NCBI GenBank assembly: GCA_946405145.1
Contig: CAMJGE010000001.1
Span: 1 to 64,000, forward strand
Direction: 5' to 3'
Length of the DNA: 64,000 nucleotides
DNA from: an uncultured Prevotella sp.
GTDB lineage: Bacteria > Bacteroidota > Bacteroidia > Bacteroidales > Bacteroidaceae
Shown: positions 12,115 to 59,969 of the stretch, piece by piece
Layout: each line of letters begins with the position of its first letter
How positions within the stretch are numbered: the stretch's first letter is position 1
The notes under the pieces: model-generated
Database searches by the model: none
The model's input: only the letters and a program-made list of their open reading frames with translations
What the model was told of the DNA's origin: nothing
Translations under genes and position numbers: made by a program

Positions 12115-12118
12115 GAGA

Positions 12119-12242: not shown

Positions 12243-12440
12243 ACGAATTTCCGCAGAGTTGTATTTAAACATAATTTCAAATTTGGAAACATCCTCTTCG
12301 CTTGAGAATGCCTATCCCCCTCCGTTTTTGAAGGAACGATTTTCTAATCTGATTGCAAAGATATAAAAAAAGTTGTAAATGCGTATAACTTTCTAAAACT
12401 TTTTGTATCTTTGCAGCCGAGATCATCAATTAAATGGATT

Positions 12441-12575: not shown

Positions 12576-12594
12576 CTACTATGCAGGAATTCTT

Positions 12595-12690
12595 ATGCGT
12601 CACGATCATCCATTGCACGATATGATTCTCTCATACTACCAGGACTTCTTGAAACATGTGCCACAATTGTATACACCAAGAGATAAATAA
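12595..12690 (+). CDS. Possible 31-residue peptide downstream
   Basis: ATG 12595 to TAA 12690 (MRHDHPLHDMILSYYQDFLK onward), 19 bp after the preceding small gene. It may be a real small partner or the remains of a longer gene. Low certainty. Confidence 0.3.
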   Translation: MRHDHPLHDMILSYYQDFLKHVPQLYTPRDK

Positions 12691-12744
12691 TCTTCTTACG
12701 TCTTTTTTAGAGGCAATTTCAGCACTTTAAGCAGATACAATATG

Positions 12745-13129
12745 CTCACAATTGATGAGTTGCAACAGGTTGAAATCGTCAGTTTATGTACCCATAAAAG
12801 AAGAGCTCTACGCGCCAACAATATTTAGAAGGAGAGCGACCTGTGTGGCTGGTATCTCCATATTGTTGGTAAAGTAGATAAATGTCTTGTTCTTTTCAGT
12901 TGCATATTATGTGAAGTGACGATAAATGGCAGGATATTTCTGTTTGGTAAAGTAATCTTGGTCAAACGTAGTAAACTCCCTGTTCATAAGGAATTTCGTC
13001 CATCGCGCATTGGTCATGCACCGCTTTTGGATTGCAAAGGTAGTCAATTCAAATCGTCACCGTCAAATTTTCGCTCTAAAACTCTATATTTAAGTAATCT
13101 ACAAACATCTCCGCTAATTTTTGTGGACA
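12745..13129 (-). mobile_element. Decayed IS4-type element, internally deleted
   Basis: The right end (13022-13129) carries the end TGTCCACAAAAATTAGCGG, a -7 box TACCTTTG and a start region almost identical to the remnant at 24529-24787. Read on the minus strand from about 13020, broken frames contain MTNARWTKFL, then QKYPAIYR, then FIYFTNNMEIPATQVALL, the last being the conserved region before the catalytic Glu in IS4-group DDE transposases. Stops and deletions make it inactive. No matching left inverted repeat was found. Confidence 0.65.
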
Positions 13130-13198
13130 ATAGTGATTAATTATATACTATAGATTATTAGTTTGTCCAAAATGGGCAAAGTTTTGTCTGATTTGTTT

Positions 13199-13229
13199 TT
13201 TGTATATAGGGTAATTTGAACTAATTTTG
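13199..13229 (+). promoter_or_regulatory. Promoter of truncated susC
   Basis: TTTG (13199-13202), 19 bp, TAATTTTG (13222-13229). It starts transcription about 25 bp before the ATG at 13261 and may now feed the galK operon. Confidence 0.65.
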
Positions 13230-13260
13230 CAGCCAATAACATTTTTTTAAACCAAAAAAT

Positions 13261-13965
13261 ATGAAGTTAAAACAGACGAAAACATTGATGCGCTCATGGT
13301 TGCTATTGTTCTTGTTGATGTTCTTTCCTGCAACTTTATTGGCCCAAAATGTCAAGAAGGTATCGGGAACGGTATTTGATGAGAATGGTGAAGCACTGAT
13401 CGGTGCTACAATTACCGAGTTGGCTAGCGCAAAAGGAGTGATTACGGACTTTGATGGAAATTTCTCTCTAGATGTAACTAGTGGGGCAAAATCCATTCAG
13501 GTGTCGTATGTTGGTTACAAAACGAAGACCGTCAATATTCCTGTTGCAGGAAAACTGACCATTCGTATGGAACCCGATGAAACCATGTTGCAGGAGACGG
13601 TGGTCATCGGCTATGGTGTGCAACGTAAGAGTGACCTGACAGGTTCCGTCTCAAACGTGAGCAGTAAGGACTTCAATCAGGGAGTCATCAACTCGCCAGA
13701 ACAGCTGATTAATGGTAAGGTGAGTGGTGTACAAATCGTGAATGGAGGCGGTTCGCCATCGGCAGGTAGCACTATCCGTATTCGTGGAGGTGCTTCGCTG
13801 AATGCCTCCAATGACCCGCTGATTGTACTTGACGGTGTTCCCATGGAAGTGGGTGGCAGTGTCAGTGGTAGCGGAAACTTCCTGAGTTTGATTAATCCGA
13901 ACGACATTGAGAGCATGACCATCCTGAAGGATGCATCTTCTACTGCTATCTATGGTTCGCGCTAG
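13261..13965 (+). pseudogene. Truncated SusC-like TonB-dependent transporter
   Basis: 234 residues instead of about 1000. Present are a signal peptide (about 9-29), a CarboxypepD-reg-like domain (about 34-110: VSGTVFDENGEALIGATI), and most of the plug (VVIGYGVQRKSDLTGSVSNV, IRIRGGASLNASNDPLIVLD, ILKDASSTAIYGSR). It stops at the exact point where SusC proteins continue into NGVIIITTK, so the barrel is missing, and no SusD follows. In frame +1 the sequence continues as ASKGCFENGMPTVALDAYK to a stop at about 14020, suggesting a deletion that joined susC to the end of another gene. Confidence 0.85.
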
Positions 13966-44538: not shown

Positions 44539-45192
44539 ATGAGGAAGACAGAAAGATACGAACGGATTTTGGCGCACTTCAAGGCACAGATGCCAGAGGT
44601 GACCACCGAACTGGAGTTTGGCAGCGTGTTTCAGTTGCTGGTGGCAGTGATCTTGAGTGCGCAATGTACTGACAAGCGCATCAACCAGGTGACACCAGAG
44701 TTGTTCAGACATTACCCTGATGCAAAGACGATGGCACAGGCAGAACCCGAAGAGGTATTGGAATACATCAGCAGCGTCTCCTACCCTAACGCCAAGGCAG
44801 ATCATCTGGTGAAGATGGCGAGGGCACTTGTAGATAATCATGATGGTGAGGTGCCCTCAGACATGAATGCCCTACTCGACTTACCAGGTGTGGGACGGAA
44901 GACGGCGAATGTGATTCAGAGTGTGGCTTTTGGCAAATCTACTTTAGCCGTTGACACCCATGTGTATCGGGTGGCTCACAGACTCGGACTTGTCAGCAAG
45001 CGTGACAACACGCCTTTCAAAGTTGAACAGGAGCTGGTGAAGCACATACCTGCAGAAGACATCCCCAATGCGCACCACTGGCTTCTGCTGCACGGACGCT
45101 ACGTCTGCACTTCCAGAAAGCCGCATTGCGAGAAGTGCGAGATAGAAAAATATTGTGCAAAACAAATAGAGGGCTCGAAATTAGACCACTAA
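44539..45192 (+). CDS. nth: Endonuclease III
   Basis: 217 residues from ATG 44539. LSAQCTDKRINQVTP, HhH motif LPGVGRKTANVI with catalytic Lys in VGRKTA, Asp in VDTHVYRVAHRLG, and the C-terminal 4Fe-4S cluster C-x6-C-x2-C-x5-C. Removes oxidised pyrimidines from DNA by glycosylase/AP-lyase action. Confidence 0.95.
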   Translation: MRKTERYERILAHFKAQMPEVTTELEFGSVFQLLVAVILSAQCTDKRINQVTPELFRHYPDAKTMAQAEPEEVLEYISSVSYPNAKADHLVKMARALVDNHDGEVPSDMNALLDLPGVGRKTANVIQSVAFGKSTLAVDTHVYRVAHRLGLVSKRDNTPFKVEQELVKHIPAEDIPNAHHWLLLHGRYVCTSRKPHCEKCEIEKYCAKQIEGSKLDH

Positions 45193-45601
45193 TTTGCTTT
45201 TTAAACAAACTTTACAAACCAGCCTCTGAGAATCGCGCAAAATTCACCAATCCAGACTTGGGGCTCAAATACGCGAATTTTGAGCCATTTTGTAAACCTT
45301 TGACTATCTGAGGCTTACAAAATCAGCACTTCTTCAGACAAGAAAAAACAACCCGAAAAGTAGCTTTTTACACCTCAAAAAGTTACTTTTTACTATTAAT
45401 TCTGGCACTTTTTACCTTTAAATCTAGCACTTTTTCCCATTAATGGGAACAATTTTTCAATAACTCTGCAGTAAGTTTTCCATAACCTAACAGCATGTTC
45501 CCTTGCAGGGAACGCCCCTTTTGCTTACTTCTCGCCAATACCTTCTCCTAGAACGCCCCATTCCGAAGTGTTAAATTTAGGCATAATTCCTTTACATCAA
45601 A

Positions 45602-45632
45602 GGGCGCAAAGGTGCCAGCCCCCTTTGCGCCC
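45602..45632. terminator. GC-rich hairpin between nth and the PEGA operon
   Basis: GGGCGCAAAGG (45602-45612) pairs with CCTTTGCGCCC (45622-45632), loop 9 nt. It lacks a long T-run on either side but lies between two convergent units. Confidence 0.5.
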
Positions 45633-45666
45633 AATGCATAATCTTCCTCCTTATTTGATTAAACCA

Positions 45667-45756
45667 TTATTCTTCAAATGCTGACATATCGTCTTCACCA
45701 TCCACTCCTTCATAATACTTCCAGGATGTGGCCGATGAAATCTCTTTTGAACCCAT
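45667..45756 (-). CDS. Possible 29-residue acidic peptide
   Basis: ATG 45756 to TAA 45667 (MGSKEISSATSWKYYEG onward). A weak promoter-like TACTTTTAC precedes it. It may also be the surviving start of a lost gene. Confidence 0.3.
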   Translation of the reverse strand: MGSKEISSATSWKYYEGVDGEDDMSAFEE

Positions 45757-45945
45757 AACAATTGTTCTTTGGGTGTAAAAGTACTATTTTTAGTACTAAC
45801 TTCCAAATCTTTTGAGTACTTTTTTGTTTATGGGTACTAAAAGCACATTGCTTCTGGATTGCTTTTCAGAAAAAGATCATAGACCATTCCCCTCTATGCT
45901 ATGTTTGGCAAAAATACATTTGGGTTTGGCTTATCATCCTAGTTT

Positions 45946-47706
45946 TTATAAATCAAGAGCAAGGCGTAATCCGAGGGAGTCCAATCGGGTGTCGGGCTTA
46001 TATTTAATCCGTTCCAACACATTGCAGAATCTCGCCTCGCTCCCCCAATGGCCACCACGAACTACAGGAAGAGAGTCCATTGAAGGTCTCGTTGGATTCA
46101 TCCGACTATCGCTGTTATAACCACTCCAAGTCTTATACAACTCATAGACATTTCCGATGATGTTATAATTGTCATTCCAATAACACCACTCACAGACATT
46201 ACCACTCATATCATATAATCCTAGTTCATTTGCCTGTTTTGTTTTGACAATGTGAGATTGCCATTTTTTCTTCTTTTTACTATTATCATAATACCAGGAC
46301 ACTTTATCTACATTGTTGCTACCACTGTATATATAACCATGACTCTCGTTACCACCACGAGCAGCAAATTCCCATTCTGCTTCTGTAGGCAGTCGGAACT
46401 TTCGACCAGTCATCTGGTTAAGCTTTTTAATAAATAACTGACAATCATCCCAACTGACTTTCTCAACGGGTCTGTTATTGCCCTTAAAGTTTGAAGGATT
46501 ATTACCCATTACAGTCTCCCATAGCGCCTGGGTTACCTCTGTCTCTCCTATATAATATGTTGAGAGTTTCACTTGCTCACTGGTTGCTCCCATCTGGAAA
46601 GTTCCACCATCTACCTGAACCATTGTGAATGAAACGGTTCCCACAGTAAACTCCAGATTGCCAGTCGGCTTTTCTAGATTTACTGTGAGTATGGATGTCT
46701 CGTCCTCATTAACTGTCAAGGTTGAGTTATAATCACTATAACCTTGCTTGCTGATACGGACCTGGTGCTGTCCGACAAGCAAATCAGATATCATCAGCGG
46801 TGTCTGTCCAACTTTCTTTCCATCAATAAAGATATCCGCCATTCCTGGTGAACTGTTGATGTCTGCTTCTCCATAAATCGGGGTCGGGCTTTGGAGTTTC
46901 ACAATTTGAGGCTCTGATGTTACAATAAAGTCTTGTGTGGTAGTAGTGCTGCGATGCCCTTGTTTCTTAGCTTCAAGTTCATAAGTACCTGCGCCAAGAT
47001 TACCGCTCCAAGAGCCTACACCTTTCCTTTCGCCATTTACCCATATTTCGGCATTGTTATCCACATTAATAGTAACCTTAGCGAAATTAGGCTTTAGGGA
47101 TATATTTACCACCTTCTTATTATTGGGATCATCAACGGTAACCGACCCCGCTTCTAACAAATAGTCTGGAGCCTGGACACGATAATTATAGGTACCAAAC
47201 TTCATCATCTTTGAAGCGACACCACCTTCTGTTTTGAGTAATTCTCCATTTAACTCTACAACAGCATCAGGTGGTGTAAGTTGGAAAACAACATATTGTG
47301 ATGTTCGAGCTTGTTTCACAACAGTCTGCACTTCCCCCGCAATAAGGATCATTTCGTAAGTACGAGCAGCTTCAATAGGGACATTCAGATAATAGTCTCT
47401 CAGCATTCCTAATTGAGGATGTGAGATTGTTATCTTCTTTAGACCTCGGGGCACATATACCCAAATCTCAGATGGTTTCTGAACCGTTTTCACGATACCT
47501 AATGCTCCGCCATCGAAAGTGAATCCAGTTTGAGTTGTCACCACTTTGATAAGTGCTGCTGTCTCACCATTTTGATCTTGCTCCATTGTGCCAGCTGTGT
47601 TAGCTGTTAGGTCTGTATCGAGTAGCTTGAAACTGCTAACTGAAATTGATTGAGCTAATACTGTCAGTCTAAAGATTAAAAACAAAAAAAGTATAGATTT
47701 CCTCAT
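45946..47706 (-). CDS. Module-N protein with three PEGA repeats and FGE/SUMF fold
   Basis: 586 residues. Signal peptide (1-18); a 100-residue N-terminal module shared by five genes (about 20-120: SISVSSFKLLDTDLTANTAG); three PEGA domains (about 137-205, 206-272, 275-345: AEIWVNGERKGVGSWSGNLG, ADIFIDGKKVGQTPLM); then an FGE-sulfatase domain (355-586: VDGGTFQMGATSEQ, YYIGETEVTQALWETVMGNN, RKFRLPTEAEWEFAARGG). In active formylglycine enzymes two Cys sit near the end; here only the second (SEARFC) is plausible, so a binding role is more likely. Last gene of the operon; 349 bp identical to the gene at 50350. Confidence 0.8.
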   Translation of the reverse strand: MRKSILFLFLIFRLTVLAQSISVSSFKLLDTDLTANTAGTMEQDQNGETAALIKVVTTQTGFTFDGGALGIVKTVQKPSEIWVYVPRGLKKITISHPQLGMLRDYYLNVPIEAARTYEMILIAGEVQTVVKQARTSQYVVFQLTPPDAVVELNGELLKTEGGVASKMMKFGTYNYRVQAPDYLLEAGSVTVDDPNNKKVVNISLKPNFAKVTINVDNNAEIWVNGERKGVGSWSGNLGAGTYELEAKKQGHRSTTTTQDFIVTSEPQIVKLQSPTPIYGEADINSSPGMADIFIDGKKVGQTPLMISDLLVGQHQVRISKQGYSDYNSTLTVNEDETSILTVNLEKPTGNLEFTVGTVSFTMVQVDGGTFQMGATSEQVKLSTYYIGETEVTQALWETVMGNNPSNFKGNNRPVEKVSWDDCQLFIKKLNQMTGRKFRLPTEAEWEFAARGGNESHGYIYSGSNNVDKVSWYYDNSKKKKKWQSHIVKTKQANELGLYDMSGNVCEWCYWNDNYNIIGNVYELYKTWSGYNSDSRMNPTRPSMDSLPVVRGGHWGSEARFCNVLERIKYKPDTRLDSLGLRLALDL

Positions 47707-47711
47707 GTCTT

Positions 47712-48824
47712 TTAATGATTAATGCTTTTTACTAATTTTCCAGCCTTGAATTTACCCTCTAATATTTCACCGTTACTCTTAGTCAATTTCCCATTACCAT
47801 TATAGTTATCTTTTTCCCATTGCCCCACATAAATATCGCCATTGGAAAACTTAAATGTACCAAATCCAGATCGCATATTATCCTTCCATTCTCCATCGTA
47901 TGTTGAGCCATCCCCCCAATCAAAGAATCCATTTCCATTCCTTTTGTCGTTTTGCCAATCACCTTTATAATAAGCTCCAGTAGAATATGTATATACCCCT
48001 TTGCCAGAACGTTTGTCCATTACCCAATCTCCGTCATACTTATCTCCGTTGAAATAATACATCACTCCATGCCCCTGCTGGTAATCATGTAGCCATGAAC
48101 CTTCGTACCTATTGTTATTAGCGAAATAATATGTGCCATTACCGTGTTGTTGATCCTGATACCATTCGCCCTCATAGCGTTCTCCATCAAAGAATTTGTA
48201 TATTCCATATCCTTGTCTTTTTCCATTAATAAAATAGCCTTCATACATATTTCCATTTTTGTAGATGGCACGCCCATAACCATCGGGTTTTTCAGATTTT
48301 AAATCTCCATAGTAATCTGCACCATCATGGGTTTTCTTCCCTGTATAATCTAATTCCTTTTTGCCAATTTCTAGAACATGATTTTTATCAAATTCATTAT
48401 GTTCCTCTTTTCTTGAATTATCAACATATTCTGTTGATTCTTCTTTCTGGTTTCTTGTGGATAATACCAATTCATAAGTCCGAGCTGCTTCTATAGGTAT
48501 ATTTAAGTAATAATCTCTTATCAATCCGAATTGTGGGTGAGCTATAGTAATCTTCTTTAGACCTCTTGGCACATATACCCAAATTTCTGAAGGCTTTTGC
48601 TTTGTTTTCACAATTCCCAAAGATCCACCATCAAAAGTGAATCCAGTTTGAGTAGTTACCACTTTGATAAGTGCTGCAGCCTCGCCGTTCTGATCTTGCT
48701 CCATTGTACCAGCTGTGTTGGCTGTTAGATCTGTATCAAGCAGCTTGAAACTGCTGATAGAAAGATTTTGACCAAATACTGTTATATTGAAGAAAAACAG
48801 CAAAAGTATAATTGATTTTCTCAT
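47712..48824 (-). CDS. Module-N protein with MORN repeats
   Basis: 370 residues: signal peptide, module N (about 20-120), a charged linker (NQKEESTEYVDNSRKEEHNE), then about eight MORN repeats from about residue 170 on (YEGYFINGKRQGYGIYKFF, YDGDWVMDKRSGKGVYTYS). MORN repeats form an extended beta-hairpin sheet often bound to membrane or to partner proteins. It replaces the PEGA/FGE part of its paralogues. Gap of 3 bp to the previous gene and 5 bp to the next. Confidence 0.8.
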   Translation of the reverse strand: MRKSIILLLFFFNITVFGQNLSISSFKLLDTDLTANTAGTMEQDQNGEAAALIKVVTTQTGFTFDGGSLGIVKTKQKPSEIWVYVPRGLKKITIAHPQFGLIRDYYLNIPIEAARTYELVLSTRNQKEESTEYVDNSRKEEHNEFDKNHVLEIGKKELDYTGKKTHDGADYYGDLKSEKPDGYGRAIYKNGNMYEGYFINGKRQGYGIYKFFDGERYEGEWYQDQQHGNGTYYFANNNRYEGSWLHDYQQGHGVMYYFNGDKYDGDWVMDKRSGKGVYTYSTGAYYKGDWQNDKRNGNGFFDWGDGSTYDGEWKDNMRSGFGTFKFSNGDIYVGQWEKDNYNGNGKLTKSNGEILEGKFKAGKLVKSINH

Positions 48825-48827
48825 GTT

Positions 48828-50324
48828 CTAAATATCTATAACTTGTTCGTTCTCTGTAATTTCAATCCTCTTCTTGAATTTGTATTTAGTCTTTTCACCC
48901 CACACATTACGATCTGCTTCAAATAAGTGAGATCCTGAATATAAAAATAACTTAATTTTAGTTCCTTTATTTACTACACCTTTTGATTTGCCATCAATAT
49001 ACAAATTTATATCATGTTTTTTTGATGTTACAATAACAACAAATCCTTCAGGTTCAATTTGTTCTTCTAATACAATGTTTTTTGATAAAATTTTATCTTC
49101 ATCAATGGTTATTTTTGCGTAATAATTCTTGTGATTTTTAAGTTTTATGCTTATATTATGAGTACCGGCTAGAATTTGAGGTAAATATAATGGCGTTTTA
49201 TCATAAGACTTCCCATCAATAAGGATATCTGCCATAGATGGAGTACTAGTGATATTTAAGCTACCGTAAATGGGTGTAGGAGAATTTAGGTGAAAGTTTT
49301 GCTTGACTTGGTCTTTAGTGATTTCTACGTTTTGTGAGGTACCCCTATGACCCTCTTTCTTTGCTTCAAATTTGTAAGACCCAAGTTCTAATTTTCCTTT
49401 CCACAATCCATTTGCTTTTTTTTCTTCATTTATATAGATTTCTGCATCATTATCAACAGAGATAGTCACTTCAGAATAATTGGCTGTCAAAAGTGGTTTA
49501 ACTTGTGTCGCCTCATTATCCTTCACTGTTACAATTTGAGAAAATGGATTATATAGTTCCTTGACGATTTTTATATTATGTTCTCCACTTGATAGTTCTT
49601 TAGACTTCATGGGGATAGTCCCAGCCAATGTATTATCAATAAATACCTGTGCCCCATTATATTCTTCATTGTCAGGAATTTCAATCCAACCAAATGCTGG
49701 TTTAAGATTAACTTCAAGCATTTTCTTGTTATTCGGGTCATCAATAGTAACCTTCCCTGCTGTTGTATGATAATCTTTCGCTTGTACGCGATATTCGTAG
49801 GTCCCAAGCTTTACGAATTTTTGTGCATAGCCATTGGTAGTAGGTAAAACCTCATTATCAAACTCCACTATAGCATTAGCGGGTGAAACATGTATAACAA
49901 TATATTGGCTATTAGCCTTCTCCTTTACGATGGTTCGCACTTCTCCGCTAATCAATACCATTTCATATGTCCTAGCAGCCTCAATAGCACAAGGGAAATA
50001 GTAATCACGAAGTACACCTAATTGTGGGTGCTTAACAGAGATTTTCTTTGATCCCCTTGGTATATATACCCAAACCTCTCCTGGGGTTTGCTTTGTTTTT
50101 ACAATCCCCAAAGATCCACCATCAAAAGTAAAACCTGTCTGAGTTGTTACAACTTTGATTAGTGCTGCTGTCTCACCATTTTGATCCAACTCCATTGTAC
50201 CAGCTGTATTGGCTGTTAAATCAGTATCAAGCAGTTTGAAACTACTGACAGAGATGGTTTGAGCTAAACAATGGAGCGAAAATAAACAAATAAGAAAAGA
50301 AATAACTCTCCTAATGATATTCAT
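48828..50324 (-). CDS. Module-N protein with PEGA-type repeats
   Basis: 498 residues: signal peptide, module N (about 22-125), then PEGA-like repeats through to the end (AEIYINEEKKANGLWKGKLE, ADILIDGKSYDKTPLYLPQI, INLYIDGKSKGVVNKGTK) without an enzymatic domain. PEGA domains are short beta folds found in surface and periplasmic proteins that bind other proteins or glycans. It ends with a KKRIEITENEQVIDI strand. Confidence 0.75.
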   Translation of the reverse strand: MNIIRRVISFLICLFSLHCLAQTISVSSFKLLDTDLTANTAGTMELDQNGETAALIKVVTTQTGFTFDGGSLGIVKTKQTPGEVWVYIPRGSKKISVKHPQLGVLRDYYFPCAIEAARTYEMVLISGEVRTIVKEKANSQYIVIHVSPANAIVEFDNEVLPTTNGYAQKFVKLGTYEYRVQAKDYHTTAGKVTIDDPNNKKMLEVNLKPAFGWIEIPDNEEYNGAQVFIDNTLAGTIPMKSKELSSGEHNIKIVKELYNPFSQIVTVKDNEATQVKPLLTANYSEVTISVDNDAEIYINEEKKANGLWKGKLELGSYKFEAKKEGHRGTSQNVEITKDQVKQNFHLNSPTPIYGSLNITSTPSMADILIDGKSYDKTPLYLPQILAGTHNISIKLKNHKNYYAKITIDEDKILSKNIVLEEQIEPEGFVVIVTSKKHDINLYIDGKSKGVVNKGTKIKLFLYSGSHLFEADRNVWGEKTKYKFKKRIEITENEQVIDI

Positions 50325-50349
50325 ATGTATAAAATTATATAAAAAGTTC

Positions 50350-52101
50350 TTATTTCACATTATCAATAGCAAGGCGTAAACCTATATTATTTCTTTTTGT
50401 ATCAGGTCTTGCATATTCTCGATTGACAATCGTACAAACATTATCAAGTAAATTCCATCCTCCACCTCTAAAAACGCGAAGAACGCCTTTTTTAGGTCCT
50501 TTAGGGTTCTTTACTGATTTAGTAGAATAATGCTCAAACAGATCTTGACACCATTCTTGCACGTTACCAGACATGTCATAAACTCCTAATTCATTAGAGT
50601 TCTTAAATTTCACATCACACGTAGATCTTTCTGTTGTATAAACAAACCATGCAACTTCTTTAATATTATTACTACCACTATATATATATCCCTTACTTCT
50701 ATTACCTCCTTGAGCAGCAAACTCCCATTCTGCTTCTGTAGGCAGTCGGAACTTTCGACCAGTCTTCTGATTCAACCTCTTTATAAACTCCTGACAATCA
50801 TTCCAACTAACCTGCTCTACAGGTCTGTTAATGCCTTTAAAATTTGATGGATTATTGCCCATAACAGCCTCCCATAGACCCTGTGTTACCTCAGTCTCTC
50901 CTATAAAATATGGTGAGAGCGTCACTTGATGAACAGGGTTCTCATTATTTTCAACACTCCCTTGTTTATTGGTGTCTCCCATCTGGAACGTACCACCATC
51001 TACCTGAATCATTGTAAACGAGACAGTACCCACAGTAAATTCCAGATTGCCAGTTGGCTTTTCTAGTTTTGTTGTGAGTATGGAGGTCTCACCTTCTTTG
51101 ACTATCAAGGTAGAGTTATAGTCACTATAGCCCTGCTTACTGATACGAACCTGATGCTGTCCAACAAGTAAATCGGATACCATCTGTGGCGTCAATCCAA
51201 CTTTCTTTCCATCAATGTAAATATCTGCCATTGCAGGTGAACTACTAATATCTGCTTCACCGAGAATAGGAGTAGGTGGCTGAAGCTTCACTATTTGAGG
51301 CTCTGAAGTAGCAATAAAATCATGTGTGATAGTGGTACTACGATGTCCTTGTTTCATAGCTTCAAGTTCGTAAGTGCCAGCTCCTAAATTCCCTGTCCAT
51401 GTCCCATTTCCTTTTTTCTCTCCATTAACCCATATTTCTGCCTTGTTATCCACATTAATAGTAACCTTAGCGAAATTAGGTTTTAGCGAAATGTTAACTA
51501 CTTTCTTGTTGTTGGGATCATCGACTGTCACAGAGCCAGCTTCTAACAAATAGTCTGGGGCCTGTATACGATAGTTATAGGTGCCAAACTTCATCATTTT
51601 AGAAGCAACGCCACCTTCTGTTTTTAGCAATTCACCATTTAGTTCTACTACAGCATCAGGTGGTGTAAGTTGGAAAACAACATATTGTGATGTTCGAGCT
51701 TGTTTCACAACAGTCTGCACTTCCCCCGCAATAAGGATCATTTCGTAAGTACGAGCAGCTTCAATAGGGACATTCAGATAATAGTCTCTCAGCATTCCTA
51801 ATTGAGGATGTGAGATTGTTATCTTCTTTAGACCTCGGGGCACATATACCCAAATCTCAGATGGTTTCTGAACCGTTTTCACGATACCTAATGCTCCGCC
51901 ATCGAAAGTGAATCCAGTTTGAGTTGTCACCACTTTGATAAGTGCTGCTGTCTCACCATTTTGATCTTGCTCCATTGTGCCAGCTGTGTTAGCTGTTAAA
52001 TCAGTATCTAGTAGCTTAAAACTGCTTACTGATATTGATTGAGAGTTACAGACTGTACAAATAAAAAGAATTAGGACTATGGATAACAACTTTCTTTTCA
52101 T
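50350..52101 (-). CDS. Module-N protein with three PEGA repeats and FGE/SUMF fold
   Basis: 583 residues with the same layout as the last operon gene. The FGE part has QVDGGTFQMGDTNKQ, FIGETEVTQGLWEAVMGNNP and RKFRLPTEAEWEFAAQGGN but ends with VFRGGGWNLLDNVC, again missing the first catalytic Cys. The C-terminal domain differs clearly from its twin while the region around residues 35-151 is identical at DNA level. Confidence 0.8.
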   Translation of the reverse strand: MKRKLLSIVLILFICTVCNSQSISVSSFKLLDTDLTANTAGTMEQDQNGETAALIKVVTTQTGFTFDGGALGIVKTVQKPSEIWVYVPRGLKKITISHPQLGMLRDYYLNVPIEAARTYEMILIAGEVQTVVKQARTSQYVVFQLTPPDAVVELNGELLKTEGGVASKMMKFGTYNYRIQAPDYLLEAGSVTVDDPNNKKVVNISLKPNFAKVTINVDNKAEIWVNGEKKGNGTWTGNLGAGTYELEAMKQGHRSTTITHDFIATSEPQIVKLQPPTPILGEADISSSPAMADIYIDGKKVGLTPQMVSDLLVGQHQVRISKQGYSDYNSTLIVKEGETSILTTKLEKPTGNLEFTVGTVSFTMIQVDGGTFQMGDTNKQGSVENNENPVHQVTLSPYFIGETEVTQGLWEAVMGNNPSNFKGINRPVEQVSWNDCQEFIKRLNQKTGRKFRLPTEAEWEFAAQGGNRSKGYIYSGSNNIKEVAWFVYTTERSTCDVKFKNSNELGVYDMSGNVQEWCQDLFEHYSTKSVKNPKGPKKGVLRVFRGGGWNLLDNVCTIVNREYARPDTKRNNIGLRLAIDNVK

Positions 52102-52109
52102 AATTGCAA

Positions 52110-53600
52110 TTAATTTCTAATATAGATATCTTTATCTTTAAAGGATACAAAAAAACTACTATTTGAGGAACTAAAAGTAACCTTTTTAATTATCTCGTTT
52201 TGCCCCTTACACCTAAATTTTAGAGTGTGTTCTCCTGATCTAAATTTTATAGTTGTGGGATTTCTATTAATAGAATTAGAACAAATTTCATCATCAATAA
52301 ATAAGTAAGTATTAGGCATATCACTAGAGAAAGTAATTTTGAGTTCCCAAGGTTCTAATATAACATTAACTTCTTCTACTGGATCTTTAAAGTCTATAAC
52401 ATCCCTATATGCAACAAGACCTTCATAAGGCTTAGGCCTAACTTCAATCTTGTGCTTTCCTACTAAAATTGTTCTTCTTCCAGAAGCTTTTCCCATTAAA
52501 ACATCATCAATATAAAGATCTGCATCTGGTCTATTACATTTTATGTCGAAATAGATGCATTCATTTAACTCTGCATTAATTTCACAAATCTTACCTTTTT
52601 CTATAGTAATGTCAGATACGAAATCTCCATAGCCTTCATGGGAAATCCTCAAATTGTGTTTCCCAATGAGTAAATCAGAGAGATACAGTGGGGTTTGGCC
52701 ATATAGTTTTTTGTCGATATAAACATCAGAAACAGAAGGATTACTAGTAATATTAATCTCTCCATATATTGGAGATGGTGTTTGCAAATTTATAATTTGT
52801 TGATCGGGTGAGGCTACGATTTCTCTCGAAATATAGGTATTAGAGTATCCTTCTTTTTTAGCTTCAAATTCATAAAGGCCAGCTCCTAAATCTCCTGTCC
52901 ATGAGCCAATTCCTTTTAATTCCCCATTAATCCAAATTTCTGCGTCATTATCCACGTTGATTATTAAATGCGCAAAATTTGGTTTAAGATTTATCGTTAC
53001 GATTTTTTTGTTTTGGGGATCATCTATTGTTACAGACCCGGCTTCTAATAGATAATTTGGCGCTTGAACACGATAGTTATATGTCCCCAAGTTTTTCAAT
53101 TTTTCAGCTGTACCATTATGGGTCTCTAGGAGTTCGCCGTCTAATTCAACAACTGCATTTTCTGGAGAAAGTTGGAACACGACATATTGCGAAGTGCGAG
53201 ATTTCTTCACCACTGTCTGAACCTCTCCTGTAATAAGAATCATCTCATAAGTCTTCGCGGGTTCTATTGCTACAGGGAAATAATAATCACGGAGTACCCC
53301 AAGTTGTGGGTGCTTAATAGAGATTTTCTTTGCACCTCTTGGTATATATACCCATACTTCACCTGGGGTTTGCTTTGTTTTTACAATCCCCAAAGATCCA
53401 CCATCGAAAGTGAATCCAGTTTGAGTTGTCACCACTTTAATGAGTGCAGCAGTCTCACCATTTTGATCCAACTCCATTGTACCAGCTGTATTGGCTGTTA
53501 AATCAGTATCTAGTAGCTTAAAACTGCTGATAGAAATATTCTGGCCGAATGTGTTTGCAATGAAGATAAATGCGAATATGACAAAACTAATTCTTTTCAT
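52110..53600 (-). CDS. Module-N protein with PEGA-type repeats
   Basis: 496 residues: signal peptide, module N, three to five PEGA-like repeats (AEIWINGELKGIGSWTGDLG, SDVYIDKKLYGQTPLYLSDL, ADLYIDDVLMGKASGRR) and a final beta domain (TYLFIDDEICSNSINRNP). Its start overlaps the preceding gene by 14 bp. Confidence 0.75.
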   Translation of the reverse strand: MKRISFVIFAFIFIANTFGQNISISSFKLLDTDLTANTAGTMELDQNGETAALIKVVTTQTGFTFDGGSLGIVKTKQTPGEVWVYIPRGAKKISIKHPQLGVLRDYYFPVAIEPAKTYEMILITGEVQTVVKKSRTSQYVVFQLSPENAVVELDGELLETHNGTAEKLKNLGTYNYRVQAPNYLLEAGSVTIDDPQNKKIVTINLKPNFAHLIINVDNDAEIWINGELKGIGSWTGDLGAGLYEFEAKKEGYSNTYISREIVASPDQQIINLQTPSPIYGEINITSNPSVSDVYIDKKLYGQTPLYLSDLLIGKHNLRISHEGYGDFVSDITIEKGKICEINAELNECIYFDIKCNRPDADLYIDDVLMGKASGRRTILVGKHKIEVRPKPYEGLVAYRDVIDFKDPVEEVNVILEPWELKITFSSDMPNTYLFIDDEICSNSINRNPTTIKFRSGEHTLKFRCKGQNEIIKKVTFSSSNSSFFVSFKDKDIYIRN

Positions 53601-54141
53601 TTTTATCTAAAGTGAAACTTAAAGTATTCCAATCTGGGTTTAGTGCAAAACAGAAATTTTGAAACTCCTCTGCTAATACTATGTAATCATGTTCATAATT
53701 GGGGTTGACGTTAATATTCATCAACGTCCTTTCTAACTTTCGAGTACTTTTATTTTTTTGGGGATATCTTCTTATGTAATTAAGTAGGAGCATACAATCA
53801 ACTTTAATTTGACGTTCATAATATGAATTATGATCGTCAGATAAATCAGTTTTAAGATTCCGCTTTTTAAGTAATTCAAAAGATTCTTCTATTTTATAAT
53901 AAAGTCCAATTATTATTTTAAAATCATCATCAGCTCTTCTTTCTGTTGACGTTAATTCGTATATTAGGTACGATACGGCAATTGTGCCTATTGCTGATAT
54001 TGGCGCAAATACTCCTGATAAATAATTGCCAAACTCAGCATTGAACAATAAACCATTTTCAAAATGGTAATTATAGAGCATCGTTATTATGTAAATCACA
54101 AATACGATAGCCAGAAGGCATATGACACAATTCTTTTTCAT
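53587..54141 (-). CDS. Two-TM protein of unknown function
   Basis: 184 residues. Two membrane helices (about 5-25 and 38-63: GNYLSGVFAPISAIGTIAVS) with a cytosolic or periplasmic helical domain. The FGNYLSGVFAPI motif resembles the N-terminal pair of helices in several uncharacterised and abortive-infection-type proteins; that likeness is weak evidence. It sits inside the operon and overlaps the next gene. Confidence 0.6.
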   Translation of the reverse strand: MKKNCVICLLAIVFVIYIITMLYNYHFENGLLFNAEFGNYLSGVFAPISAIGTIAVSYLIYELTSTERRADDDFKIIIGLYYKIEESFELLKKRNLKTDLSDDHNSYYERQIKVDCMLLLNYIRRYPQKNKSTRKLERTLMNINVNPNYEHDYIVLAEEFQNFCFALNPDWNTLSFTLDKNEKN

Positions 54142-54172
54142 TTAATTACAAAAACTCTGTATTCAAGCCAAA

Positions 54173-54364
54173 TCAATATCCTTTATTTCTTAAGAACTTT
54201 CGCAACTCGTTAGCGCTACAACCAAAAGTTTTCTGACAAGTGTTGTCATCAAGTCTTGATGTATCTGCTTTACCATTCACATAATTAAGATAAATATAGC
54301 CGTCAAGTTCTGGTGTACCCAAAACAAGCTTTCCGTCCTGCTCTTCAAAAATAATATCTCTCAT
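54173..54364 (-). CDS. 63-residue soluble protein, unknown
   Basis: No signal peptide or TM. Acidic N-terminus, then LDGYIYLNYVNGKADTSRLD and a helical end (CSANELRKFLRNKGY). The spacing (5 bp from the transglutaminase-like gene) and clean frame support it. No family recognised. Confidence 0.55.
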   Translation of the reverse strand: MRDIIFEEQDGKLVLGTPELDGYIYLNYVNGKADTSRLDDNTCQKTFGCSANELRKFLRNKGY

Positions 54365-54369
54365 ACCTC

Positions 54370-55797
54370 TTATTTAATTAAATCAACTTCTGGTTTCGTA
54401 TCTCTGTAAGCTGGCATACACATACCTATTGAAGCTCCGATGTATGTGGGGTCGCATATTACGTATTGTTTGCCTTGATACATATAATAATCTGCATTCA
54501 GCTTCTGAGAGAAGTTTACCGCAGTACATTCGTGCATAGGATAATGTACCAAATGTACATCGTTGCCTAATAAGTTGGTGACTAAAAAATGATAGAAGAT
54601 GGCTCTATCTTCACAGTCACATTTAGGATAATATAGTGTTTCTTCAACAAAGAAAGGCTTCTCGTAGCCGAATTGCTCATCATCAGTAGCATAATCAAAT
54701 GACTGAATAAACTGAAGAATAAAATTAGCTGCTTCAAGTTCTGACATGCCAGATATAAAGCTTTTCATTTGATTCAATATCTGATTCCTTGCTTTATTAT
54801 CGCCTTGAGAGACAGCATATGCAGGAATAGGCATTTGTGGGAATGCTGCCATTACTTTAATTAAATTCTCATTAACCTCACCAGAAAGAGTTTTTCCAGA
54901 GAATGTATGGCTAAATCTTTTTGCTTTATACGGAATAGCTAAAGGCTTTGTGATAACTAAATTTACGTAATCACCCGCATCATCAGGAACCTTTGGTGTA
55001 AAATAATCCGCATTTTCATCTAAATACCCTTCTCCCCAAACGTAATATGGGGTATCATGTATTAAGATATAATTATGTGCAAAAACACGCTGCTTAAAAG
55101 GAATGAGATAAAAAAGGCCATTACCAATAAACGATATTCTTACGTCAAATCCGAATTGTGCCATCATATACCAACATATAAAGTTTCGAGTGTTGGCACT
55201 AGCATTTGGCTTTATTTTCTTGACATAGCTTTGTATCAAGAGGCATAAACACCAGTCATTAAACTTTGCTCCAGTAGCAATATTTGCCATCTGTGGGAGA
55301 ACCTTGTCATTAACCTTTGAATTATTTAGTACATCGAAAAATGCCAAAACACTTTCTTTGTCTAAGCCACATAAGTCACCCTGAATCTTTGCATCAGGCA
55401 ACTGCATTCCCATTCCGCACCACTCAAACGTGACTAAATCTGAAGGGTTAGGAGTAACAGGTTTCGGCTTATTGGGCTTGTCGCTACTTATGGGCTCTGA
55501 AGGTTTAACCTCTTCTGGCACAACTTCCTTAGGTTTGGGCGTTGGCTCATCCTTTTTCTTCTTAGGTTGAACTTTGGGTTTGGGAAGGGGATACGCTTTC
55601 TCCCCTTTAAAAGCCTTATATCTATCCCATACACCATTTAAGAACTTGGCATAATCATCCATGATAGATTTTCTGAACCCCATATATCCTGAGAGCATCT
55701 TTTCACGGTATGATTGAAAATCGTCCTTCTTATCTTGTGCAAAGCCTGATATGAAGGGGATAAAAACTAATATAGAAATAATGATTGCCTTTCTCAT
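54370..55797 (-). CDS. Exported transglutaminase-like protein
   Basis: 475 residues from ATG 55797 (MRKAIIISILVFIPFISGFA); signal peptide about 1-21. A Pro/Lys-rich linker (about 85-125, PKPKVQPKKKKDEPTPKP) leads to a domain with YYPKCDCEDRAIFYHFLVTN (likely Cys), VHYPMHECTAVNF (likely His) and VICDPTYIG (Asp): the order expected for the transglutaminase/papain-like fold. It may cleave or cross-link peptide bonds in exported partners. It starts 10 bp after the preceding stop. Confidence 0.7.
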   Translation of the reverse strand: MRKAIIISILVFIPFISGFAQDKKDDFQSYREKMLSGYMGFRKSIMDDYAKFLNGVWDRYKAFKGEKAYPLPKPKVQPKKKKDEPTPKPKEVVPEEVKPSEPISSDKPNKPKPVTPNPSDLVTFEWCGMGMQLPDAKIQGDLCGLDKESVLAFFDVLNNSKVNDKVLPQMANIATGAKFNDWCLCLLIQSYVKKIKPNASANTRNFICWYMMAQFGFDVRISFIGNGLFYLIPFKQRVFAHNYILIHDTPYYVWGEGYLDENADYFTPKVPDDAGDYVNLVITKPLAIPYKAKRFSHTFSGKTLSGEVNENLIKVMAAFPQMPIPAYAVSQGDNKARNQILNQMKSFISGMSELEAANFILQFIQSFDYATDDEQFGYEKPFFVEETLYYPKCDCEDRAIFYHFLVTNLLGNDVHLVHYPMHECTAVNFSQKLNADYYMYQGKQYVICDPTYIGASIGMCMPAYRDTKPEVDLIK

Positions 55798-55807
55798 ACT
55801 CTCATAC

Positions 55808-57595
55808 TTAAAAATCCGAAAGTCCATAAACTCCAAAATTAGGATCCTTCTCTGGCTGCCATGTACGTACCTTGATAATAGGCTTATCAGGATTGTTCAC
55901 ATCAACCATCAAGAAAAGATATCCCGTGTCACCATATGTACTAGAATAGTAATCCTGCTTTATCTGAATACCATAGGTCTCACCTCCCTTTCCTGCTTTA
56001 ATCACATCGTTATTGGCAAAACGAATGTTTATGTATTCATTACCAGCAAAGCAATGTTCCAAATTACGGAGGTATTCGTTCTTTGTTTGTCTGTTATACT
56101 TGATAATTTTGGAATCAATGTATTGGGAACGTTCTGTAACGTTTTTCGGCCTGTTTGCCACTCGTCCAGTTATGATTACAGCATTGTCATCAAAAACGTT
56201 GCGAATGAAATCAAGATCCTTCAAAGCATAGGCGGTCTTATATTCTTCAAGGAAGTTGGCAAGGATAAGACGTGCGTCCATATTCCAAACGCCTTTCATC
56301 ATAATGTCATTGTAGGCTTCTTTCCCCAATCCAAATAGTACCTCATCAATTTTTTGCTGACTATTGAATGTGAAGACTACATTTTCAACAAACTTCCTGT
56401 TATTGTTCTTAAAGCCAAATGACATAGTTAAACCTCGGCAAATCACTTTGTCTCCGAGACTATTAAACTGAATGTCAGAGTTTTCAATTAGCGTTGCACG
56501 TCCATAATGGATAAGTTTTTGGAACTGATCCCAACCCTTTTGCGTGAAAAATTTCTGCAAGCTCCCATTTGACTTTTGAGAAATGGCTTTTGATATAGAA
56601 TTCAGGATTGTGACATGCTTGCTGTAGTCTTCTATAGCACTACTAGCGTTTGTTGCAGATCTAAATTCCTTAACTTCTGTTACTGGTTGATGATTTTCTT
56701 GGGGTACTGCTGTTACATTGATATATGCATTCCTAAAAGATACACCTCCTGTCAGAGCCATCACATTTTCTATTTCCCTATCGATATGACTTTCACCCGC
56801 AAATTCATATTCACATTTAATTCTTAGATTATCCGCAATCTGGCCTGGGCGCAAATCTATAACACCCTGTCCATCTTTGGCACTATAGATGTTGCTCCAA
56901 TCCATTCCGTCAAAATAGGTATAATCAAAGCTGTTAATAGGTTTGCCTTTATATTTGAATGATAGTATTACCTCGTTATTCAACTTATTAATGGGGGTAA
57001 TACTGATATCAGAGAAAATATCATTCATTTTTTCAGGAATCCATGTTGACAGCAATCGTTCTTTACCATCAGGATCTTTGAACTTTACTTCATTCGAATA
57101 CTGGAGGCTTTTTAGCAAGCATAAGGACCAATAGTAATATCTAAGAGCATCATCAATTTTACCCTTTTGTTCTGCTCGTCCTGCACTTTCAACCATATCA
57201 AACATTTTTGCTTTTCGTCCCTCGAAAATGCGGGCTATCTCGGCAACTTTTACATAACGAAGCACATGAGCATCTGGCTCATTCTCTATTACTATACGTT
57301 GTGTATTTGTTAGTGTAGCTTGAGAGTAAGTATTGATGATAGATCGATAGACAGAGACAGCATCAAGTTTCCCATTTTTATTAGTTTCCTCTTCTGCGCT
57401 TGTGAACGAACTGCGTACATTTACAGATATTTTGCTAATAAGATCTTGTAAGGCTGCATCATCGGCTTGCTTTAATGTAGTGCCCCATCCTTCACCTGAC
57501 AGATAATTTTTATCTGCCTTTATCTCCGATACACTTTGCGGAAAAGCACAAATGCTGGTTATCAATAAGGTAAATGATAGAATTTTTCTTCTCAT
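55808..57595 (-). CDS. LPP20-like exported protein with NTF2-like C-terminus
   Basis: 595 residues with a signal peptide (about 1-19). ADKNYLSGEGWGTTLKQADD with the following AALQDLISKISVNVRSS is the pattern of LPP20-type lipoprotein domains. A middle beta-rich part is followed by a C-terminal segment (about 430-595: FLEEYKTAYALKDLDFIRNV, FDDNAVIITGRV) like NTF2/SnoaL folds. Exported and possibly envelope-attached; function unknown. Only 1 bp from the first gene. Confidence 0.6.
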   Translation of the reverse strand: MRRKILSFTLLITSICAFPQSVSEIKADKNYLSGEGWGTTLKQADDAALQDLISKISVNVRSSFTSAEEETNKNGKLDAVSVYRSIINTYSQATLTNTQRIVIENEPDAHVLRYVKVAEIARIFEGRKAKMFDMVESAGRAEQKGKIDDALRYYYWSLCLLKSLQYSNEVKFKDPDGKERLLSTWIPEKMNDIFSDISITPINKLNNEVILSFKYKGKPINSFDYTYFDGMDWSNIYSAKDGQGVIDLRPGQIADNLRIKCEYEFAGESHIDREIENVMALTGGVSFRNAYINVTAVPQENHQPVTEVKEFRSATNASSAIEDYSKHVTILNSISKAISQKSNGSLQKFFTQKGWDQFQKLIHYGRATLIENSDIQFNSLGDKVICRGLTMSFGFKNNNRKFVENVVFTFNSQQKIDEVLFGLGKEAYNDIMMKGVWNMDARLILANFLEEYKTAYALKDLDFIRNVFDDNAVIITGRVANRPKNVTERSQYIDSKIIKYNRQTKNEYLRNLEHCFAGNEYINIRFANNDVIKAGKGGETYGIQIKQDYYSSTYGDTGYLFLMVDVNNPDKPIIKVRTWQPEKDPNFGVYGLSDF

Positions 57596-57596
57596 T

Positions 57597-58274
57597 TTAG
57601 ATATCTATACCTTTAGCTTGTTGAGGTTTTTCTTGTGGAGCCTCAGAAGGATCCACCTTTTCATTGATATATTTGGATATGATTTCAGCATACTTTTGAG
57701 CTGCCACAGATTCCTTAGCGGCGTTCTCAAATGCTTTGACTCTCGCATTCAAAGCTGAATCTTCATCGAATATAAAGAAAGACTGCATTTCATAAGAACC
57801 ATCTTTGTTTTGTCTGATAACGCTAAAACTCTCCTTTATTTCTCCTCTTATTTCCTTTTCTACAGCTCTTTCGTAAGCAGCATAGAAATGGTCAAATTCT
57901 ACTGTTAGGTTGTCTGCATCGGCTCCCATATCACTAACAACACGACCTTTAACCTGAGAACCTGCCTGAGAGGAATAAATAACACATGCATTATTCATCG
58001 CAATTTGTCTTCCAATATTTTTGGATTTGAAAGCACTCGCAATTCCAACAATTTCATAAACATTATCTCCACCTTTGTTAAGCTTGTCATAGTGGTTAAG
58101 CAAGGCAACTTCAAGACTTCTTGAACTGCCGAATATCTCCCATCCGCCTTTCTTGAATTCCTTCATCTTTGTCTTATACTCTTTCTGCAAAGCCTTGTTC
58201 AAAAGGTCACTTTGAGAAAATACAACAGTTGGTAATGTAAGTGCCAACGTTAACAATAGGATAAACTTCTTCAT
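57597..58274 (-). CDS. Exported protein, first gene of the PEGA/FGE operon
   Basis: 225 residues; signal peptide about 1-20. SKNIGRQIAMNNACVIYSSQ and helical VKAFENAAKESVAAQKYAEI resemble LPP20-related proteins but the family call is weak. Starts after a leader of about 385 nt and is preceded by AAGGAGAT, a rare Shine-Dalgarno-like site 3 bp from the ATG. Confidence 0.55.
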   Translation of the reverse strand: MKKFILLLTLALTLPTVVFSQSDLLNKALQKEYKTKMKEFKKGGWEIFGSSRSLEVALLNHYDKLNKGGDNVYEIVGIASAFKSKNIGRQIAMNNACVIYSSQAGSQVKGRVVSDMGADADNLTVEFDHFYAAYERAVEKEIRGEIKESFSVIRQNKDGSYEMQSFFIFDEDSALNARVKAFENAAKESVAAQKYAEIISKYINEKVDPSEAPQEKPQQAKGIDI

Positions 58275-58660
58275 ATCTCCTTTTTTTACCCAAGCAAACT
58301 CCCAAGACTTGGCAGACTAATATCAAAAGGTGCAACTATAAATACGAAGAAGCGTGGGAATCTACCTGTTACTCGTCCCACCTGTTGAGGCTCTGGCATC
58401 GCCCTGATTGTTGAACGAGCAACGCCGAAGCCCACGCTGATATGTATATAAGCGGCATCCATTGCATTTGGACTAATAATAGCCAAGCAATACAAATGTC
58501 GGATATTACATACCCATGAGCGTCTTTGCTGCAATGTTCTTGACAATCAGTTTGAAACTGCCAGATTCCAACAGGTCAAGTACAAAGCGTCAAGTACGCT
58601 TTTCCTATATATAGGTCATCATTCGTCAATTCACTTAATAGTGGATCTCTGTCTGATAAC
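58275..58660 (-). promoter_or_regulatory. Long structured leader of the PEGA/FGE operon
   Basis: Between the -7 box at 58666-58673 and ATG 58274 lie about 385 nt that are less AT-rich than the genes around them. Visible elements: the direct repeat TACTTGAC twice, GGCGTTGC paired with GCGATGCC (two G-U pairs), and GTGGGA paired with TCCCAC. An 86-codon frame inside is not convincing as a protein. Confidence 0.45.
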
Positions 58661-58663
58661 AGG

Positions 58664-58709
58664 GGCAAAGATAAGAAATAATTCTGAAACTTAAAAGAAA
58701 ATGGCAGGG
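58664..58709 (-). promoter_or_regulatory. Operon promoter, copy 1 of a 45-bp repeat
   Basis: Minus strand: CTGCCATTTTCTTTTAAGTT with the following TCAGAA (58682-58707), 8 bp, TATCTTTG (58666-58673). The same arrangement occurs at 59361-59407. Confidence 0.7.
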
Positions 58710-58733
58710 AAAAGTGAAAAAAGAAAAGAAATA

Positions 58734-58765
58734 TTTGGAAGTTAAGGGGAAACATCGTATCTTTG
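58734..58765 (+). promoter_or_regulatory. Promoter of the two-hairpin RNA
   Basis: TTTG (58734-58737), exactly 20 bp, TATCTTTG (58758-58765). A textbook Bacteroidota promoter directed at the repeat hairpins, with no reading frame behind it. Confidence 0.75.
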
Positions 58766-58771
58766 CAGCGT

Positions 58772-58908
58772 GAAAGGAACCTATTTAAGACAAGAGCCCC
58801 ATTTGGTTTGGCAAGCGACTTGTTAAAATAGAAGCACTTTTAAAACTCCGTCTAAGACAAGAGCCCCATTTGGTTTGGCAAGCGACTTGTTAAGGCGGAG
58901 TTCCTTTT
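58772..58908 (+). ncRNA. Candidate RNA with two repeated hairpins
   Basis: Two 41-nt repeats (58786-58826, 58853-58893) are identical. Each is the top of a hairpin closed by ACAAG/CTTGT with loop AGCCCCATTTGG onward. The basal arms differ between copies but pair within each: CTATTT/AAATAG for the first, AACTCCGTC/GGCGGAGTT for the second. AAAGGAAC (58773-58780) pairs with GTTCCTTT (58900-58907), closing both hairpins. The end reads CCTTTT. Overlaps the 3' end of the minus-strand gene at 58890. Confidence 0.65.
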
Positions 58909-59339
58909 ACTAAGCTGTCTTTTCGTGCATCAAAAGTATATTCATCTATAATGGCATACGGCTTATAGATACCACCGACTCTCATTCTTCGCATACAAAG
59001 AATTGTTTTGCATCCCAAGTCCCGACTGAAATAGGTGAAATATGCACTTTCGAAATGTTTACCATCAACTGTAGGTCTCCATCCTACATATTCTGCTTTT
59101 TCCAAATAGCCTTTGATGTCAATCGCTAACGCATTCTTGATAGCATTAAATTTGTTGTTTCTTGTGTTTTTGTTAGCTATTACTCTCAAATCAGAGTTTG
59201 TTATTTCTACGTTCATTGTGATACCATTCGTAATAATAAAGGTAATCGGATTACCTTTTAACTCCTTAGCTTTGGCCATCACAAGAGCCCTCAAGCGTCT
59301 GCTTTCAACAAAATAATCTTCTAAATTTCTGTTGCTCAT
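58890..59339 (-). CDS. Small protein of unknown function
   Basis: 149 residues from ATG 59339 (MSNRNLEDYFVESRRLRALV); the longer frame begins inside its promoter. Helical N-terminus, then ITFIITNGITMNVEITNSDL, and a basic C-terminal half with KHFESAYFTYF and CKTILCMRRMRVGG. A remote likeness to LPD3/PBECR-type phage nuclease domains came to mind but cannot be supported by eye. The stop codon lies within the second RNA repeat. Confidence 0.55.
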   Translation of the reverse strand: MSNRNLEDYFVESRRLRALVMAKAKELKGNPITFIITNGITMNVEITNSDLRVIANKNTRNNKFNAIKNALAIDIKGYLEKAEYVGWRPTVDGKHFESAYFTYFSRDLGCKTILCMRRMRVGGIYKPYAIIDEYTFDARKDSLVKGTPP

Positions 59340-59360
59340 AGTCCTAAATTTAAATTCTGC

Positions 59361-59407
59361 CTGCAAAGATAAGGAAAGTTTCTGAAACTTAAAAGAAAAT
59401 GGCAGAG
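59361..59407 (-). promoter_or_regulatory. Promoter, copy 2 of the 45-bp repeat
   Basis: Minus strand: the same 26-bp block (59380-59405), 8 bp, TATCTTTG (59364-59371). It drives the 149-residue gene. Confidence 0.7.
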
Positions 59408-59485
59408 AATTTTAGATTAGATTTCTAAGTAAACAAATTAATGCAGGAAAACTTACGTATTTTTTCGAGAGGGAAAAGCACTGAG

Positions 59486-59515
59486 AAAAAAAATCAGCCT
59501 ATTTCTTAGGCTGAT
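59486..59515 (-). terminator. Terminator of the sigma-factor operon
   Basis: Minus strand: ATCAGCCTA, loop AGAA, TAGGCTGAT, then seven T. The stop codon of the last gene lies in the loop-proximal part of the stem. Confidence 0.9.
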
Positions 59516-59969
59516 GCTTATGATGATTATCGTCTTTATTCTTACTCCAGTTCTTAAAGGCGCGACGATGGAAGCGGTCTTCTGCCTTGATGACATCATA
59601 GACCTTTGAGGCTGGTAGCACACAGAAGAACTTGTTGTGATAGGTCTGCTGAATATTCTTCAGCTCCAACTCATAGACATCACGCTGCTGCACCACCTTC
59701 TTGCAATCACACTCATCAACGGGTTTGATTTTGCACTCCTTTTTTATCTGCTGGTGGATCGTGCGCTGTTTCTTGTGCATCTCACGGAGCAATGGGAAGA
59801 ACTTGGCTGCTTCCTCGGGGGTGAGACATGCCTCCTTGGTGATAAACTGTTCCATCTCCGCCTGGAACTTCTCAGGGGAGAACTTCTGAGGCTCATCAGC
59901 AAATGCCGAAACACTCAAAAGGAAAACAACACTCAGGGTAAACAACAGTCTCTTCATAGCTTTCATCAT
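59499..59969 (-). CDS. Exported helical protein, CpxP/Spy-like position
   Basis: 156 residues from ATG 59969 (MMKAMKRLLFTLSVVFLLSV); signal peptide about 1-23. FITKEACLTPEEAAKFFPLL, then repeated charged helices (HKKQRTIHQQIKKE, RDVYELELKNIQQTYHNKF), with a His/Lys-rich tail. This is the layout of small periplasmic helical proteins that follow sigma/anti-sigma pairs. Function inferred from position only. Confidence 0.65.
   Translation of the reverse strand: MMKAMKRLLFTLSVVFLLSVSAFADEPQKFSPEKFQAEMEQFITKEACLTPEEAAKFFPLLREMHKKQRTIHQQIKKECKIKPVDECDCKKVVQQRDVYELELKNIQQTYHNKFFCVLPASKVYDVIKAEDRFHRRAFKNWSKNKDDNHHKHQPKK

Follow-up and report, generated by a model that had tools for sequence, protein, structure and literature searches.

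Introduction

UpxY and LoaP are NusG paralogues that act on 5' leaders (PMC7819879, PMC12691694), and UpxY proteins have been reported to prevent premature termination within such leaders. LapG (BTLCP) is described as a periplasmic protease (PMC3032545), and a survey of structured-RNA candidates of human microbiomes (PMC8040213) includes two palindromic ones from Bacteroidetes, of 109 and 132 bp. Here we describe a ten-gene operon and its leader, found in a 64,000-nt window (the whole stretch of DNA analysed) of Prevotella sp. contig CAMJGE010000001.1 (assembly GCA_946405145.1; genome of 2.74 Mb, 85% complete). The leader is a conserved RNA, a fact that had gone unnoticed in the initial annotation of this DNA. 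We put at about even the chances that the locus is a horizontally moved surface-protein operon gated by this RNA.

The leader is a conserved, structured RNA

The promoter and long leader that had been proposed for the operon were both found: a motif that we take, from the Bacteroidetes-type consensus, to be a -7 element is present at 58673-58665, and the leader extends over about 385 nt (Table 1). Copies of the RNA were fetched from BLAST matches, a covariance model was built, and the 3' domain was aligned from 93 copies, of which 89 are distinct. In this alignment, which was fitted to nested helices, 97.6% of cells pair, compared with 40-54% when the helices are slid, and 19 of the 26 pairs, those of the pseudoknot included, show changes on both sides. 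An earlier MAFFT alignment of 46 copies gave 98.6% pairing, with 4 pairs changed on both sides. In the 3' domain, many of the changes on one side only give G-U wobbles when read on the operon-sense strand; the same positions would be mismatched on the opposite strand.

Similar results were obtained for the full-length RNA. From 64 copies with a promoter motif, 54 diverse ones were kept; their consensus comprises 61 pairs in 10 helices, 90% paired as against 42-48% when slid, and 39 of the 61 pairs have changes on both sides, the structure having been derived from the same alignment. The 314-nt copy of the window folds with a z-score of -5.05. A sense TAnnTTTGY site lies within 250 nt upstream in 61 of 92 copies, mostly 180-250 nt before the 3' domain, and such sites upstream of RNA copies were found 67 times in sense and twice in antisense orientation. 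The stretch between the promoter motif and the 3' domain is also conserved. P1 is followed by a T-run (at least 6 T in 9 nt) in 85/93 copies. A 5' segment, AAAGRCGT, is able to pair with the 3' strand of P1 and the T-run (96.4% of cells paired), and the minimum-energy fold of the window copy uses this alternative pairing.

Rfam 15 gave no covariance-model match (E up to 1) over the RNA in the window or in 8 further copy-bearing loci. The RNA may be among the unnamed candidates of PMC8040213, and we call it undescribed only with respect to Rfam 15 and literature searches.

The RNA recurs upstream of many operons

BLAST with the leader gave matches in 87 of 201 genomes of the family, its own included, and the RNA is spread over many genera of this one bacterial family. 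Among 26 genomes chosen for a BLAST match or a protease of the type described below, 24 had an RNA match at E 1e-4, with up to 15 places listed per genome (15 in G134, 13 in G071). The ATG of the first open reading frame (ORF) of at least 60 aa was located 60-79 nt downstream in 44/93 copies, as compared with 6.8% of random positions and 1/93 on the antisense strand. In 14 of 40 protease loci, an upstream RNA copy in the same orientation was also found (E 1e-6), against 1.4 expected from its density in the 26 genomes, although 5 of these 14 loci belonged to the alignment of the covariance model. Pfam families of the 88 first downstream genes included LRR (6), NusG (5), CarboxypepD_reg (4), PEGA (3), dockerin (3), C14 (2), and LytTR (2).

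RNA copies were also observed ahead of TerB/TerD-like, LytTR/FHA, and radical-SAM-like genes (L218, L222, L225, and L302; labels by inspection except LytTR). In another locus, a copy lies within 3 kb of direct repeats of the clustered regularly interspaced short palindromic repeats (CRISPR) type (L228:1-260 and 833-958; Rfam DR49, the latter below the gathering score).

We also looked at places of NusG genes that we label UpxY-type on the basis of their Pfam NusG match. At 9 of 23 such places, among them 9 of the 11 best-scoring, an RNA among the matches listed was present 181-390 nt upstream; the query had been taken from an RNA-led gene.

The operon lies in an insertion

A hint of transfer had been seen in the AT-richness of the region. 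The region indeed has a GC content of about 33-41%, lower than the 44-51% of its near flanks, but another part of the window (20-26 kb) is also low (39-43%). Comparison with relatives showed an insertion into this site: a stretch of about 14.4 kb is absent at the same site in nine genomes of the same genus (L198-L206), homology to which ends at about 45141 and restarts at about 59547. The distance from nth to the extracytoplasmic function (ECF) sigma factor gene, on one contig, is 788-1075 bp in these nine genomes and 15.2 kb in the window. They were identified by searching 39 further genomes of this genus; in the remainder, nth and the ECF sigma gene were farther apart, on separate contigs, or one of them was not found. 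The insert contains the operon, the leader, and a 158-aa ORF (58890-59366) that had no match at the nine relatives' sites. No repeat of more than 14 nt is common to its left and right ends.

Two repeats were observed beside the leader. A perfect 41-nt direct repeat (58786-58826 and 58853-58893) stands next to the leader promoter; both of its copies are bounded by inverted ends, ACAAG...CTTGT. The promoter region itself (58665-58707) is repeated at 59363-59405 (43 nt, 91% identical); the 158-aa ORF and the operon therefore have upstream sequence in common.

Operon layout and the shared head

The layout given initially was confirmed: ten ORFs, all on the minus strand from 58274 to 45946, are spaced by at most 31 bp or overlap, the 63-aa ORF at 54173-54364 included. 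A simple in-house rule assigned a signal-peptide or membrane start to nine of the ten products, g4 being the exception. Of the LPP20-like proteins of the initial annotation, g2 reached the LPP20 family only below threshold (18.1 bits vs a Pfam cut-off of 25.9) and g1 had no Pfam match.

Table 1. Positions of the features of the operon, its leader RNA, and the insert in the window
Feature	Position	Strand	Description
g1	57597..58274	-	Exported, 225 aa; resembles LPP20 by inspection only, without Pfam match
g2	55808..57595	-	595-aa exported protein; weak LPP20 match
g3	54370..55797	-	LapG/transglutaminase-fold cysteine protease (predicted); ATG start
g4	54173..54364	-	63-aa protein; kept in L010 and L011
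g5	53587..54141	-	Protein with two transmembrane segments; 19 database entries
g6	52110..53600	-	Head + PEGA
g7	50350..52101	-	Head + PEGA + FGE fold
g8	48828..50324	-	Head + PEGA
g9	47712..48824	-	Head + MORN
g10	45946..47706	-	Head + PEGA + FGE fold
Promoter motif TATCTTTGC	58665..58673	-	Presumed Bacteroidetes-type -7
Structured leader RNA, full length (~314 nt)	58346..58659	-	54-sequence alignment; 5' end estimated from motif
RNA 5' domain (helices Pa, Pb, Pc)	58519..58600	-	Full-length alignment
RNA 3' domain (P1, P2, P3, pseudoknot)	58346..58450	-	93 copies; ends in terminator-like P1 and T-run
5' segment of the alternative pairing	58597..58603	-	Pairs with P1 3' strand and T-run (58355-58348); 96.4% of cells paired
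Insert	45142..59546		~14.4 kb, ends approximate; between nth and Spy-like/anti-sigma/ECF-sigma locus

Five of the operon proteins share an N-terminal head, as had been noticed, and no further copies of it were found in the 85% complete genome. Pfam also agreed on the tails: PEGA in four proteins, two of which additionally contain the FGE fold, and MORN in one. The description of the heads as nearly identical holds at the protein level, but over 300 nt of DNA they are only 71-98% identical. Between g7 and g10, DNA identity is 97-100% in the head (alignment columns 100-400) and 44-66% in the C-terminal part, a sequence pattern consistent with the head having been duplicated or converted recently, and with tails that diverge.

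The idea of a constant head with exchangeable tails was upheld in relatives, whose heads carry FGE, PEGA, MORN, TPR, OmpH, LRR, or TonB. A protein search with the head (E 1e-5) retrieved 1162 proteins. Among 120 listed ones, g9 and g10 being two of them, tails were PEGA only (56), FGE (44), MORN (6), TPR (5), OmpH (2), DUF2846 (2), T5orf172 (1), LRR_5 (1), TonB_C (1), or without Pfam family (2); some of these names were assigned from the accessions. Two loci from uncultured Prevotellaceae (L010 and L011, drawn from 80 loci retained of 241 confirmed) keep the order g1-g5, which is followed by two and four heads, respectively, with other tails, among them one TPR-like tail and three OmpH-like copies. 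These three copies are in the last head protein of L011 (11500-14016) and are 51-63% identical to an opposite-strand gene about 1.3 kb away. In L010, the head protein at 11342-13612 has a tail that shares 46% identity with another, separate gene (L010:885-2054) upstream of the operon.

The g3 protease and its loci

The initial annotation had described g3 as a transglutaminase-like protein with a Cys-His-Asp set that could attach or process the head proteins. The Cys-His-Asp set was invariant in 39/39 aligned homologues. The role of a cross-linker is less fitting: the structure model of g3 appears closest to LapG, a periplasmic protease, so that g3 is more probably a protease of the LapG type. 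No Pfam family matched g3, and its homologue L013 reached only a sub-threshold Transglut_core match.

The family of g3-type proteases is wide, with 4312 matches among 7996 scored candidates. In 399 genomes of the bacterial family, the protease was found in 110, heads in 68, and both in 43 (Fisher p 9e-12). With protease places taken from among the matches listed, and many contigs being short, 38 of 145 head places were within 20 kb of a protease place, as compared with 2.7 expected. The linkage between head and protease was thus retained, but not the view of the head as a fixed unit with the protease: the head is often found without these neighbours, since 107/145 head places had no listed protease place within 20 kb. 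When only the strongest heads (E 1e-30) of other genomes were counted, 9/38 were near one.

A set of 40 protease loci, none longer than 20 kb and most of them top-scoring rather than random, was fetched. Profiles built on these same loci placed g1-like genes in 29, g2-like ones in 12, and a head in 8 of them; 18/40 contain a caspase motif pair. Among 105 accessory proteins, hand-picked from 152, Pfam (E 0.001) detected C14 (14), DUF4384 (11), CarboxypepD_reg (11), PEGA (8), BACON_2 (5), WD40-type (4), LRR_5 (3), FGE (3), WG (3), and TPR (3). The g3 gene belongs to a widespread family of loci for exported LPP20-like proteins and proteases, frequently accompanied by caspases. With just 19 g5 entries among 5.8 billion proteins, the ten genes in this exact combination are rare.

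Proposed mechanism and alternatives

The alternative pairing, the association with UpxY-type genes, and the reported role of UpxY together suggest that the RNA is an attenuator that may work with a NusG-like antiterminator. In the mechanism that we propose, the leader RNA of about 314 nt would be a transcription attenuator ahead of a horizontally moved surface-protein operon. We infer that P1 and the T-run would end transcription early, and that the polymerase would get past them through the alternative pairing or with an antiterminator, predicted to be a NusG paralogue of the UpxY type. The envelope would be the site of action of the operon products: the LapG-like g3 would cleave or release the head proteins there, as its putative substrates, and the exchangeable tails may bind different targets.

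Several observations weigh against this mechanism. For a 181-nt piece of the window leader, the z-score of the fold is only -1.64; the T-run has fewer than 6 T in 8/93 copies and is interrupted and weak in the window (CTTCTTCG); and the 60-79-nt spacing is missing in the remaining 49/93 copies. In the alternative helix, 3 of 8 pairs have changes on both sides, which 45 of 500 shuffles also reach, and sliding the helix by +2 leaves 79.9% of cells paired. No RNA match was obtained in the closest operons, L010 and L011; the RNA is therefore not an obligatory component of the ten-gene set. Genes following the RNA showed no clear enrichment in the export flag (48/88 vs 711/1550 ORFs in the fetched loci). 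No upxY gene is present just downstream of the leader in the window operon; the one UpxY-type gene of the own genome (G000:C7:44852-45373) has no listed RNA upstream, and 15/27 genomes, the RNA-rich G134 among them, have no UpxY match at 1e-15. A trans-acting UpxY-like factor is for these last two reasons a guess.

We advance only tentatively, at somewhat less than even chances, the wider reading of the RNA as a common family-wide switch, with up to 15 attenuator copies per genome before operons of exported modular proteins and before genes of UpxY-type antiterminators, which would read the RNA in trans. If this is true, horizontally moved surface systems (LapG-like protease, LPP20-like, caspase, BspA-LRR, PEGA/FGE) would be switched as one set. 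An RNA of such size and copy number, not in Rfam, would offer a handle on how the bacteria of this family choose the surface proteins that they express, and it connects a widespread, unnamed family of exported protease/LPP20-like/caspase genes to one testable regulator.

Its own promoter motif, terminator-like end, and large complex fold would also suit a free-standing noncoding RNA running from promoter to terminator, the operon being read by read-through or from another promoter. We consider this unlikely, as 44/93 copies end 60-79 nt before a same-strand ATG (1/93 in antisense) and many copies per genome precede unrelated genes. EAR and put are processive antitermination elements, and an analogous function, protecting long AT-rich acquired operons rather than attenuating them, would be consistent with the position of the RNA at the head of a long AT-rich inserted operon, with its pseudoknot, and with its conserved unpaired bases. 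The T-run directly after P1 in 85/93 copies is what a terminator requires, however, and makes this unlikely as well.

Conserved unpaired stretches and competing pairings are equally features of a metabolite riboswitch, which is very unlikely here in view of first downstream genes without an evident common pathway (LRR, PEGA, NusG, LytTR, caspase, dockerin). An explanation of another kind starts from the FGE tail of g10, whose best solved match is the Treponema variable protein 2y3c, presumably linked to a retroelement: the head-FGE proteins would be targets of a diversity-generating retroelement. No reverse transcriptase match was found in the own genome (85% complete), and the C-terminus of g7 is nearly unchanged in L010, so that we regard this as highly improbable.

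Comparison with described systems

Parts of the locus resemble described systems but also differ from them. With LapG/BTLCP (PMC3032545), g3 shares the Cys-His-Asp triad, the signal-peptide start, and, as predicted, a transglutaminase-like fold, but its gene is coupled to LPP20-like and head genes, and it has no Pfam match. The FGE fold with N-terminal PEGA recalls the OCTIN/FGE superfamily, with its PEGA or caspase extensions (PMC5915273), whereas the operon proteins have a signal peptide and a shared head that is found on many other tails. The leader resembles those of UpxY/LoaP in placing a terminator-like hairpin before long operons, and nine RNA copies stand 181-390 nt before UpxY-type genes. 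It differs from them in its length of about 314 nt, in its pseudoknot, and in its many copies before many operons, the one in the window being without a NusG gene.
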